Part shown: positions 29,548-54,535 of the stretch, piece after piece | Layout of the letters: every line of letters starts with the position of its first letter | How positions within the stretch are numbered: the stretch's first letter is position 1 | From: Zasmidium citrigriseum | Lineage: Eukaryota; Ascomycota; Dothideomycetes; Mycosphaerellales; Mycosphaerellaceae | Direction of reading: 5' to 3' | DNA length: 64,000 bases | Assembly (NCBI GenBank): GCA_002786025.1 | Contig: NHNW01000064.1 | Coordinates: 124,001-188,000, forward strand | Position numbers and translations under genes: made by a program | The notes under the pieces: generated by a model | The model's input: only the letters and a program-made list of their open reading frames with translations | Database searches by the model: none | Told to the model about the DNA's origin: nothing

Positions 29548-30809
29548 ATGCGGTCACCGACACTTCTCCTGTTTGCAATCAATGCCCTTGTTGCACTTGC
29601 CAATGCCAATGCCAATGCAAAGCCACTTGCCCTGGAAATGCTCGCAAGATCTCCAGACGCACTGCCACTATCGAACCCAGACTCACTTACTATCGACGCA
29701 CTCTCAGATCTCGAGGAGCGAGACGCCAGTCCTCCGGAGTCGCTTCCTGTGGAGGTTCTCTCTGATCTTGAAGAACGAGCCGCCAACAACACGAGCCAAT
29801 GCTCGACATGCCCGACCGTCTTGAAGAAAACCCTCGCTCCACTTGCAAGTCTTCCGATAGCAAAAGAGTTCTGCTCTCGCTTTGCGAACGGGACCGTCGC
29901 AGAGAACCCGTACGTAACGTTCAGATCGATCCAGGACTCAGCTGACATGGCCGACGCAGAGCCTGTCAAAAGTTCGCCGCCAAGTTTGTCACCAATGCAC
30001 AAGCCTTCTGTTGCTGTCTTTTCCCGTCAACGATGACACCTCCCCCGCTCACTCTTCCTCCAGCCGGTAACAATCAGACGAACTCCACGATGCCTCCTCC
30101 GATCACTTCTCCTGGGAATAACCAGACGAATACAACGATGCCTCCTCCGGTTACGAACCCCGGAAATAATCAAACGAATACCACGATGCCTCCTCCGATG
30201 CCGCCTCCGGTGACGAACAACAACCAGACCAATAACGGAAATACATCGGAGGGCGTAACACCTCCGCTAAGCGGCGGAGGCAACACAAACGTGACCTTAC
30301 CTGTCGTCGTTCCTCCCCCGGTCACCCAACCCAACGTTACCACACCTGAGGTAATCCCTCCGCTCCCGAACAACTCCACCGCCAACACGACCGCCAACGT
30401 TACTATACCTGTTGTAATACCGCCTCCGCCTGCAAATATAACAACAAATACCACATTAAACGTAACCGGCAACTCAACCGCCAACTATACTTTACCTTTC
30501 ACCGGCAATTCAACCAACAACGCCACGACCAACTCGACCAGTGGCCCGCGGAAGCGAGACCTAGATGACCTCAGCCTGCTCCGACGTCTGTTGCAGGCGT
30601 GGACTGAGGAGCCAGAACCTGCTCGCCCCATTCAGCTCCTCAACGGCGAGCCTGTGGATCTTGGTCTTCAAGACCCGCTACCGAGAAAAGGTTGGCAGAA
30701 TCGTGGGATCCGTGGTGGTTCGCAGATTCGGCGGAAGGGCATGAAGATTAATTTTGAGATTACTGAGGATGGGGCTTTGAAGTTGGAGATTCCTGATATT
30801 GCGCTTTGA
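29548..30809 (+). CDS. Secreted Cys-domain protein with Asn/Pro/Thr repeats (403 aa)
   Basis: Two exons, 29548–29909 and 29960–30809, joined by a 50-nt intron (GTACGT..CTGAC..GCAG) that reconciles two otherwise separate frames. A signal peptide (MRSPTLLLFAINALVALANA) is followed by two LSDLEER boxes. A Cys-rich domain (CSTC, KEFCSRFANG, NPACQKFAAKF, then AFCCCLFPS) spans the intron. A long Pro-Asn-Thr region (units like GNNQTNTTMPPP) is dense in N-x-T sequons, so heavy N-glycosylation is expected. After a dibasic GPRKR site comes a charged C-terminal block ending LKLEIPDIAL. Probably a secreted or wall-associated glycoprotein, perhaps Kex2-cleaved. I recognise no named family. Confidence 0.8.
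30088..30200 (+). repeat. 48-nt tandem coding repeat
   Basis: The sequence CGATGCCTCCTCCG recurs at exact 48-nt spacing (about 30088, 30136, 30184), i.e. a 16-residue Asn/Thr/Pro unit within the secreted glycoprotein gene. Confidence 0.8.
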
Positions 30810-52056: not shown

Positions 52057-52932
52057 TCAGGTGTCTTTCTTATCTTCCTCTTCGATTTCTTTCATAACCC
52101 TCCAATACTCCTCTCCCCACTCCCTTCCCTTGATCCCCTCCGGCTTCGTCCAATTCAAATACATCTCCAAATCCACAGCCTCCCGATCCCTCCACTCAAC
52201 CAACTGCCTCCAATCTCGACACTCCCTCACAACCCCAAAGTCCGGAAACGGATGCTCATTATCCTCCACCCACTCATACGTGATCATCCCGCTATCCGCC
52301 GTGCAGAGGAGATGCTGCATCAGCATGTCGGTGCAGTGCTGCAGGTGGATTGTTTCGAGCGCGGGCCGCCCAGCGAGGCCAGAGTTGCCGGCAAAGGCGG
52401 CTTTACGAAGCATGTTGAGGCAGTGGACTTGGTGGAAGAAGTCGAGGGCGCCGACGTAGGCGTCTTCGCCCATGTGCCAGACGGCATCTTCGAATTTGGC
52501 CACGGTGGAGGGGTCTTTGCCCATCTTGCGAATCTGCGCTGCTGTGAGGGGAATGGTGCGGATGTGTTCGAAGGAGTCCCAGGCTGCTCCTGCAACTGGG
52601 TCGGAGGGGAGGCCGCGCCAGGGCGAGGGATCGGGGCCTGGGAGGAGGGTGCCGTTGAATTTTGTGGGTTGCAGGCGGATGGTTGTGTCTTCGAGGAAAG
52701 GGGAGTAGATCGAGGTGAGTCGGATTGCGTCTTGGATCGAGATTTTATGGGTGAAGGATATGGCGAGCATTGACAGGGAGACTAGGAAGAGGAAGATGTT
52801 CGCGATGATTGCGGCTGTCCATCCGCCCCAACGTCTTCTTGAGCGCTCGTCGATTGGTCTTGCTGGACCGCCGAGCAAGGCTTCTGTCGATTCGTTGTCA
52901 GCAGCGCATTGGTCGTTCTTCTCGTTGCCCAT
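52057..52932 (-). CDS. UstYa-family (DUF3328) oxidase (291 aa)
   Basis: Single exon, ATG at 52932. A short cytosolic head (MGNEKNDQCAADNESTE) precedes one transmembrane helix (about 38–60, WTAAIIANIFLFLVSLSMLA). The lumenal domain then has the two H-x-x-H-C motifs that define the family: HQVHC (167–171) and HLQHC (196–200), in the usual contexts FFHQVHCLNMLR and HLQHCTDMLMQHLLC. TADSGMITYEW and the DFGVVRECRDW block follow as in UstYa/UstYb. Characterised members catalyse oxidative macrocyclisation of RiPP core peptides (ustiloxin, phomopsin, asperipin). It is divergent from the repeat precursor gene and shares its 593-nt promoter region, which points to that peptide as substrate (inference). 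Confidence 0.94.
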   Translation of the reverse strand: MGNEKNDQCAADNESTEALLGGPARPIDERSRRRWGGWTAAIIANIFLFLVSLSMLAISFTHKISIQDAIRLTSIYSPFLEDTTIRLQPTKFNGTLLPGPDPSPWRGLPSDPVAGAAWDSFEHIRTIPLTAAQIRKMGKDPSTVAKFEDAVWHMGEDAYVGALDFFHQVHCLNMLRKAAFAGNSGLAGRPALETIHLQHCTDMLMQHLLCTADSGMITYEWVEDNEHPFPDFGVVRECRDWRQLVEWRDREAVDLEMYLNWTKPEGIKGREWGEEYWRVMKEIEEEDKKDT

Positions 52933-53525
52933 TGCGAAGACCTCGAGAGAGTCGTTTTCTGCAGCGATGGTGAAGACGGCAGCCAGAGCAGACGACGATG
53001 CCAAAGCTGAAAACCAGAGAGCCCCGCTACACGATTGGTCTTCTTGCCCTGCAGATACTACCTCTTGGCAATGAACGGCTACTGAAGGCTTTTGTTGATA
53101 TAAGGCCACCAGCAAGAGTTAATGTGACCACTAAGCTTTATCCTAACCACAAGCAGCAGATATTTAAAGCTTCCACTGGATAAGGCCTCCAACTACAGCG
53201 CACTCGAAGCTTAAGGACCATCCACAGCTAGCTGCTTGCGGCAGGTGAGAGACACGGCATGCTGGATTCATCACGCCCAACATCAACCACTGGCCAGAGC
53301 GAGTTTCCATCCTTTGGACTACTCATGTCATGTAACCCGGCTATCAACACGAAGCTCTCTAGAGTGTCGTGTGACAGCCGATACGATGCTGACCTTCCCA
53401 ATGCGGATCGCGAATGGCAAGGTCGTTGGCGATTCAAATGGAGACCGCAGCTGTCGTGCGTGACAATCTCAGCATTTGACTTCTCCAAACCGCAACCTCT
53501 CTCTAAGTCAGACTCGTCGCTGAAG
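52933..53525. promoter_or_regulatory. Shared bidirectional promoter of UstYa and precursor genes
   Basis: The 593-nt gap between divergent start codons. An AT-rich patch with TATTTAAAG lies at about 53161–53169. No third gene fits. The head-to-head arrangement suggests co-regulation. Confidence 0.5.
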
Positions 53526-54535
53526 ATGCAGCTCACTCAACTCACCGTTGCCGCCATTCTGGCCGCTGCTGCCAACGCAACTCCAGTCGCAAATCCAGGT
53601 ATGACGAAAGCCGGCCCCTCTTGTCAAGGCTTTGATTGACAAACATCACAGGATGGTCATCGCCAGACGCATACACCATTCCTAAAGCCCGCGATGCTGA
53701 GCCGAAGTGGAATTCGCCAGACGCATACACGATCCCCAAAGCCCGCGATGCTGAGCCAAATTGGAATTCTCCAGACGCATACACGATCCCCAAGCGAGCG
53801 CCTGGCTGGTCGTCGCCCGACGCATACACCATCCCCAAGCGTGAAGCGAAGTGGAACTCTCCAGATGCATACACCATCCCCAAGCGTGAGCCCGGCTGGT
53901 CGTCGCCTAACGCATATACCATTCCAAAGGCTCGCGATGCCAAGGCGGAGCCTCTTTGGTCATCCCCAGATGCCTATCAGATCAACAAGCGCGAGGCCAA
54001 GTGGAACTCGCCAGATGCATATACGATCCCTAAAGCTAGAGATGCTGAGGCTGAAGCCGAGCCCAAGTGGAACTCTCCAGACGCCTACACAATCCCGAAG
54101 ACCCGCGACGCCGACGCCCAGCCCCTTTGGTCTTCGCCTGATGCGTATCAGATCAACAAGCGCGAGGCCAAGTGGAATTCGCCAGATGCGTACACAATCC
54201 CGAAGACCCGCGACGCTGAAGCCGAACCTCTCTGGTCCTCTCCCGACGCATATCAAATCAACAAGCGCGAGGCCAAGTGGAACTCCCCAGATGCCTATAC
54301 CATTCCCAAAGCCCGCGATGCTGAAGCCGAGCCTCTGTGGTCCTCTCCGGACGCATATCAGATCAACAAGGACCGAGACGCTGAGGCCGAGCCAAAGTGG
54401 TCTTCGCCTGATGCGTACACCATTCCAAAGAGGGAGCCAGGCTGGTCTTCGCCGGATGCGTATACGATCCCAAAGGAGAAGCGGGAGCCGATGTTCTCTG
54501 GTGAGGGTGGGTTTGTTATTGAGGCGAAGGAGTAG
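53526..54535 (+). CDS. Repeat RiPP precursor, dikaritin/KEP type (318 aa)
   Basis: Exons 53526–53598 and 53652–54535; the 53-nt intron lies just before the first repeat. A signal peptide (MQLTQLTVAAILAAAANA) is followed by 16 tandem units with consensus W-[S/N]-S-P-[D/N]-A-Y-[T/Q]-I-[P/N]-K. Twelve carry Y-T-I-P and four Y-Q-I-N (units 7, 10, 12, 14). Each unit ends in Lys followed by R, AR, TR, DR or EKR, then one or more X-Ala/X-Pro dipeptides (EA, EP, DAEP, DAEAEP), then K/G/L/N before the next Trp. This is Kex2 plus dipeptidyl-aminopeptidase logic, as in alpha-factor. The core pattern Y-x-I-x equals that of ustiloxin (YAIG) and phomopsin (YVIP) precursors. The final unit is degenerate (FSGEGGFVIE, Phe for Tyr). 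The UstYa gene next door supports RiPP maturation. The alternative, an unmodified pheromone-like peptide, is less likely: the usual C-terminal GQ-containing pheromone motif is absent. Confidence 0.88.
53654..54480 (+). repeat. 16-copy coding tandem repeat (RiPP cores)
   Basis: Sixteen units of roughly 45–66 nt encode the WxSPDAYxIxK cores with variable spacers. A higher-order doublet (an L-W-S-S..Q-I-N-K-R-E-A unit followed by a K-W-N-S..T-I-P-K unit) occurs three times, at units 7–8, 10–11 and 12–13. Confidence 0.93.

Follow-up and report, generated by a model that had tools for sequence, protein, structure and literature searches.

Genes at the locus

Two divergent genes in the genome of Zasmidium citrigriseum (44.4 Mb in 148 contigs) probably form a dikaritin-like, or ust-RiPS, locus for a ribosomally synthesized and post-translationally modified peptide (RiPP) that relies on a single UstYa-type oxidase. 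The pair lies within the 64,000-nt stretch of DNA analyzed here (the window), which corresponds to positions 124001-188000 of the contig we call C110. A first-pass annotation had placed a UstYa oxidase gene and a secreted repeat precursor gene at 52057-54535 of the window, and both genes are present at these coordinates. Their features are as follows.

52057-52932, reverse strand: single-exon UstYa-family (DUF3328, PF11807) oxidase gene, 291 residues; Pfam E=4.2e-50 over residues 30-249
52333-52347, reverse strand: HLQHC, the second HxxHC motif (residues 196-200), from sequence and alignment
52420-52434, reverse strand: HQVHC, the first HxxHC motif (residues 167-171), from sequence and alignment
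52759-52815, reverse strand: predicted membrane helix, residues 40-58, the most hydrophobic 19 (Kyte-Doolittle mean 2.47; AlphaFold2 helix 31-61)
52933-53525, no strand: divergent intergenic region of 593 bp shared by the two genes, presumed from the sequence to be a bidirectional promoter
53526-53598, forward strand: precursor exon 1 in the chosen gene model (ATG at 53526), with the presumed signal peptide and first residues (MQLTQLTVAAILAAAANATPVANP...)
53599-53651, forward strand: precursor intron, 53 bp, GTATGA...ATCACAG, placed by its splice signals and by retention of the first core
53652-54535, forward strand: precursor exon 2 in the gene model, including the stop codon
53654-54475, forward strand: array of 16 cores, W[SN]SP[DN]AY[TQ]I[PN]K, with K(x)R sites and X-Ala/X-Pro spacers, from sequence
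54476-54532, forward strand: C-terminal tail EKREPMFSGEGGFVIEAKE, which resembles the tail of a paralogous precursor on contig C95

The oxidase gene product carries every feature first ascribed to it. The Pfam check for DUF3328 is strongly positive, both HxxHC motifs could be located, and the single hydrophobic stretch of the protein peaks at residues 40-58. Twenty-one relatives are 31-72% identical to it, and in the resulting alignment of 22 sequences neither motif varies at its His or Cys residues. The start codon is supported by this alignment because the N-terminus lines up with those of the closest relatives. Of the six best relatives, three are 72, 61, and 61% identical, two come from Zasmidium cellare (61 and 58%), and one comes from Pseudocercospora fuligena (52%), both genera belonging to the Mycosphaerellaceae. 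Next come proteins of Biscogniauxia, Hypoxylon, and others, down to 31% for the most distant. No relative of solved structure was found by sequence. Because the AlphaFold2 model is of middling quality (mean pLDDT, a per-residue confidence score, of 69.5) and Foldseek found no PDB entry matching it at E≤0.001, no claim is made regarding its fold.

The precursor gene comprises two exons that encode 318 residues. This splice model is one of 11 frame-keeping solutions and was selected on visual inspection of the splice signals and because all 16 cores are retained. The N-terminus, MQLTQLTVAAILAAAANA, is hydrophobic as judged by hydropathy and is a putative signal peptide, and the protein has no Pfam match at E≤0.1. 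The distance between the two start codons was measured again and is 593 bp, identical to the head-to-head spacing given before. Genome-wide, 43 PF11807 matches were grouped by hand into 24 loci. By hand arithmetic on these 24 loci in 44.4 Mb, the chance that a gene placed at random starts no more than 600 bp from a UstYa locus is about 7 in 10,000.

Conserved cores and regular spacers

Counting yields 16 cores, the number originally claimed. Core positions W1, S3, P4, A6, Y7, I9, and K11 are identical in every copy and D5 in 15 of 16 (a single copy reads SPNAY), leaving positions 2, 8, and 10 as the variable ones. Gln at position 8 co-occurs with Asn at position 10 in each of the four copies that have it. 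When the 16 copies are compared with one another, the proportion of differences at synonymous sites (pS) is 0.793 and that at nonsynonymous sites (pN) is 0.116; for the 12 copies with Thr at position 8, the values are 0.799 and 0.051. Because the cores diverge widely at silent sites and little in amino acids, the copies are probably old and the peptide is likely to be under purifying selection.

The repeats had been described as separated by Lys/Arg sites. A site does follow each core, but classical dibasic sites account for only half of them: eight end in KR (seven KR and one KEKR), and the remaining eight are of the form K-x-R (five KAR, two KTR, and one KDR). All 15 stretches between cores share a common layout, in which the core Lys is followed by (x)R, then by one or more X-Ala or X-Pro dipeptides, and finally by one residue. 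This pattern was defined after the sequence had been inspected. When residues were shuffled within spacers (20,000 trials), on average 3.0 and at most 9 of the 15 spacers fit, and therefore the 15 of 15 observed is not attributable to chance. The K-x-R sites (KAR, KTR, and KDR) pair with longer spacers that start with DA, and the KR sites pair with single dipeptides (AP, EA, or EP).

The same spacer layout is described for peptides matured by Kex2, Kex1, and Ste13, including alpha-pheromones (PMC7329392). Spacers of the Ste13 type would leave an 11-residue product that bears one extra residue at its N-terminus. The first-pass annotation is silent on this spacer type, which makes an unmodified peptide similar to a pheromone a genuine alternative. 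The predicted products are KWNSPDAYTIP (six copies), LWSSPDAYQIN (four), GWSSPDAYTIP (three), and three singletons. No K(x)R site precedes the first copy, which comes after the signal-peptide region, and its N-terminus is therefore uncertain. Judged from the sequence, the likeliest product of the locus is thus an oxidized 11-mer, xW[SN]SP[DN]AY[TQ]I[PN].

A paralogous precursor with different cores

Homologs of the precursor were sought among approximately 5.8 billion proteins. With the 318-residue protein as query, none of 3344 word-sharing candidates reached E≤0.001, in a search limited to proteins of about 175-556 residues. When its C-terminal 145 residues, aligned with the paralog described below, served as query, there were 954 word-sharing candidates, none at E≤10. 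Because short repeats score low in a search of 5.8 billion sequences, these results do not prove that homologs are absent.

Within the genome, the sole other similar place is on contig C95 (91882-92013, E=1.8e-4). Contig C71 gave a weak match (33% identity, E=0.54) that was dropped as noise. The C95 gene is located as follows.

C95:91879-92280 (positions 1498-1899 of the retrieved stretch L011), reverse strand: paralogous precursor gene, recognized by similarity to the window precursor

Three frame-keeping splice solutions exist for this gene, and the chosen one has a 51-bp intron and yields 116 residues. In this model the intron has the same phase as that of the window precursor, and the N-terminus is similarly hydrophobic and signal-peptide-like. 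Most of the array is of another kind, with Gly-rich AGGGGRGGNW cores between R and RR. The end of the protein, LWNSPDAFTIPKEKRE...GVVIEAKE, retains the last core and the tail of the window precursor. This arrangement suggests that cores have been replaced inside a conserved frame. The final core, LWNSPDAFTIPK, carries Phe at the place of the Tyr that is present in all 16 window copies, and no PF11807 match is found on contig C95. The substitution fits the idea that Tyr may be kept where a UstYa protein is present, although it is a single case.

Repeat frames near other UstYa genes

Nineteen of the 24 UstYa loci were examined for KEX2-processed repeat proteins (KEPs), comprising the window and 18 stretches of 9.9 kb each (L015-L032). 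The detector required a repeated four-residue word whose copies are separated by a dibasic or K-x-R site. Its cut-off was four copies and was later lowered to three. KEP-like repeats occur near UstYa genes in 6 of the 19 loci at four or more copies and in 8 at three or more, the lower cut-off bringing in L027 and L028. Apart from the window, repeat frames are thus found at 7 of 18 loci (L015, L016, L018, L022, L027, L028, and L031). As a control, about 127 kb of the same genome was scanned, chosen non-randomly (the window, L014 containing L012, and L033-L048). It gave one doubtful match (window 30037-30210) besides frames of the window precursor. The stretch L013, which had been fetched for the paralog, was excluded from the control and does yield a detector match. 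The pairing of KEPs and UstYa genes is common in this genome, in line with what the 2020 survey found across fungi (PMC7329392).

These seven loci resemble the window in having a repeat frame near a UstYa gene and differ from it in their cores. Their repeats include YRPLVNVALPPSDE, DDVYHAKDGGII, TDLLNTSSLPV, DGSTEFDPDAFL, HDETYYYL, CxGAQCxKxW, and DDTNIFCSK. A signal-peptide-like start was seen by eye in two of the seven frames (L016 and L028), and X-Ala/X-Pro spacers recur in the frame of L028. The UstYa proteins of L015, L016, L018, L022, and L028 give tblastn stretches 21-32% identical to the window's protein and are therefore distant paralogs; for those of L027 and L031 there is no tblastn match at E≤1e-5.

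Another of the examined loci, L026 (C129:43000-52900), is rich in UstYa genes and has a tyrosinase match flanked on both sides by UstYa matches. Judged by its sequence features, the locus has the layout that a cluster of the ustiloxin/phomopsin type would be expected to have. The 9.9-kb stretch shows no repeat precursor, and an Arg-rich frame considered for this role does not look like one.

Surroundings and shared intergenic region

The window holds 51 non-overlapping open segments of at least 150 codons. The 49 besides the two genes were all scanned against Pfam (E≤0.001), with matches to F-box, CAP, arabinofuranosidase, GMC oxidoreductase, MFS, GH47, pro-kumamolisin, short-chain dehydrogenase, alpha/beta hydrolase, and DUF7587. 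Below the curated cut-off, F-box-like, CFEM, and protein kinase matches were also seen. No tyrosinase, methyltransferase, or cytochrome P450 is among these 49 segments, a scan that leaves short exons and overlapping frames outside. Tyrosinase (PF00264) has 22 matches genome-wide on 13 contigs and none on C110, where the next PF11807 match is approximately 136 kb away. As far as the Pfam scans reach, this agrees with the initial observation that no tyrosinase, methyltransferase, or second UstYa gene lies within about 10 kb.

The shared intergenic region contains an imperfect 19-nt direct repeat, ATAAGGCC[A/T]CCA..., at 53100-53118 and 53180-53198, 80 bp apart. Beyond this repeat, ATAAGGCCNCCA is found nowhere else in the 64-kb window. 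As a general mark of UstYa loci, ATAAGGCC was rejected because outside this promoter it occurs only once each in four loci (L013, L019, L023, and L031). The hexamer AAGCTT is present three times within 80 bp of the region (53133, 53167, and 53207) and 26 times in the whole window, compared with about 15 expected. The direct repeat and AAGCTT are possible regulator sites.

A proposed pathway and its alternatives

A dikaritin-like KEP and UstYa system, as originally proposed, remains the best reading of the locus because the gene pairing, the architecture of the precursor, and selection on its cores combine to favor it. Repeated cores parted by Kex2-type sites characterize dikaritin precursors and are found here, half of them with classical dibasic sites. 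The Y-x-I sequence of the ustiloxin/phomopsin subgroup is likewise present in all 16 cores (Y7-[TQ]-I9), but their [DN]AYxI differs from the EDYxI motif. We infer the joint action of the two genes, as well as secretion, cleavage, and oxidation and its position, from these features. The precursor would enter the secretory pathway and be cleaved after KR or K-x-R sites. C-terminal basic residues would be trimmed by a Kex1-type activity and N-terminal X-Ala/X-Pro dipeptides by one of the Ste13 type, to give up to 16 11-mers. Before or during trimming, the membrane-anchored UstYa protein would oxidize the core, most likely via its invariant Tyr. The likeliest partner of this residue would be the Ile two positions on, with Trp as the alternative.

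Several observations weigh against this pathway. Of the 16 cleavage sites, eight are K-x-R rather than classical dibasic, and spacers of the Ste13 kind typically belong to linear pheromones. A clustered tyrosinase is a trait of the ustiloxin and phomopsin loci, whose cyclization requires one, yet no tyrosinase match is found on contig C110. The Tyr-to-Phe argument is based on one paralog. UstYa relatives were found in named fungi but no homolog of the precursor in the searches described above, so that pairing in other species would be conjectural. The explanations considered below overlap, and the likelihoods attached to them are not meant to sum to one.

One alternative holds that the product is an unmodified linear secreted peptide, similar to a pheromone or hormone, and that the UstYa protein acts elsewhere or is a neighbor by chance. 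We consider this quite unlikely. The failure to find precursor homologs is compatible with it, and a Trp-containing 11-mer is similar to pheromones in size. Moreover, all 15 spacers conform to the pattern of Kex2, Kex1, and Ste13 processing seen in alpha-pheromones (PMC7329392). A search of the genome for a separate alpha-pheromone gene with the motif WCxxxGQxC, which other pheromone types would escape, identified none: its eight matches were all isolated, with no repeats around them, compared with four matches in a reversed control. On the other hand, an intact UstYa gene lies divergently only 593 bp away, and the core has neither WxW nor a pair of Cys residues. Similar spacers also occur in the UstYa-linked frame of L028 and thus are not specific to pheromones. 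Furthermore, the pheromone KEPs of the published survey are reported there to have no DUF3328 neighbors, with three exceptions (PMC7329392).

If the locus does make a RiPP, the UstYa protein could form a link other than a Tyr-Ile ether, such as a Trp-Tyr or other crosslink, or catalyze a desaturation or another oxidation. We give this a substantial chance, if one short of even. UstYa chemistry is varied: asperipin-2a has two linkages that arise from tyrosines and are not of the Tyr-Ile type (PMC9233826), and three of the phomopsin UstYa homologs are required for desaturation as well (PMC10512285). Trp is invariant in the core, and the lack of a tyrosinase match on the contig is consistent with such chemistry. 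The opposing evidence is that an invariant Tyr and Ile around a variable residue match the known Tyr-Ile substrates. The Tyr-Ile ring of the first-pass annotation accordingly goes too far; a Tyr-Ile link may form, by analogy with those substrates, but is somewhat less likely than not. It is rather unlikely that the peptide is also a substrate of a tyrosinase or other enzymes whose genes lie elsewhere in the genome. The 22 tyrosinase-family matches on 13 other contigs would permit this, among them the match at the C129 locus with UstYa genes on both sides. That tyrosinase, however, has UstYa neighbors of its own, and the fungal RiPP enzymes known so far are usually clustered.

Returning to the dikaritin-like pathway, the observations can be joined in a more specific proposal that is speculative and on balance improbable. 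A two-gene RiPP system with one UstYa protein and no tyrosinase would form a Tyr-centered crosslink in a Ste13-trimmed, pheromone-like 11-mer. Its precursor family would swap core blocks while keeping signal peptide, intron, and tail, and the copy with Phe for Tyr would be the one on a contig with no UstYa match. If true, such a two-gene Tyr-crosslink system would represent an extant intermediate that connects linear signaling peptides with cyclic RiPPs.

Comparison with known systems

By 2020, 7878 KEPs had been cataloged, grouped into 838 types plus 2560 stand-alone KEPs (PMC7329392). DUF3328 neighbors were reported at 22% of KEP genes and, save for three exceptions, not beside those for pheromones (PMC7329392). 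With so many KEP types, and with UstYa neighbors so common here and elsewhere (including the 7 of 18 other loci above), the description of the locus as a new cyclic peptide family was overstated. The peptide core itself appears to be new, and the pairing of KEP and UstYa genes is a known type. A literature text search for the core found nothing relevant, its scope excluding the supplementary tables of the KEP surveys, which may list it. A new core is the expected result because KEP types are many and UstYa pairing is common. The points of interest of this locus are instead the spacer pattern and the paralog. Known UstYa-type peptides are few, with five dikaritins by 2022 (PMC10512285), although gene pairs of this sort occur often. 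With its lone oxidase and its many copies of a strongly conserved core, the compact pair studied here provides a clean case for learning what a single UstYa protein can do when no tyrosinase is clustered with it.

The locus shares with those for ustiloxin and phomopsin a secreted-type precursor, repeated cores with Kex-type sites, a UstYa neighbor, and a Y-x-I core. The ustiloxin precursor also has 16 repeats (PMC10512285). The products of these pathways, from YAIG/YVIG and YVIP, respectively, are Tyr-Ile linked, and a tyrosinase is needed (PMC7329392). In the window, by contrast, Tyr is embedded in a longer core, W-x-SPDA-Y, where it follows [DN]A and is not part of EDYxI (PMC6339444). There is one UstYa gene, compared with two for ustiloxin and five for phomopsin (PMC7329392). 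The X-Ala/X-Pro spacers, together with a contig that has no tyrosinase match, further set the window apart from both. The asperipin-2a pathway reportedly uses a single DUF3328 oxidase and no tyrosinase. It likewise involves a dikaritin-class repeat precursor and UstYa-type cyclization (PMC9233826), but four genes were expressed to obtain the product (PMC10512285), compared with the two seen here, and both the core and the expected ring are different.

Alpha-pheromone precursors resemble the window precursor in their short Trp-containing repeats, Lys/Arg sites, and X-Ala/X-Pro dipeptides, which in the window occupy 15 of 15 spacers. They differ in that the window core has no WxW or Cys pair and in the UstYa gene that lies 593 bp away. 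Both the Ste13-type spacers and the paralog with Phe are relevant to a hypothesis in the literature by which the cyclic peptides of fungi evolved from linear ones resembling pheromones (PMC7329392).

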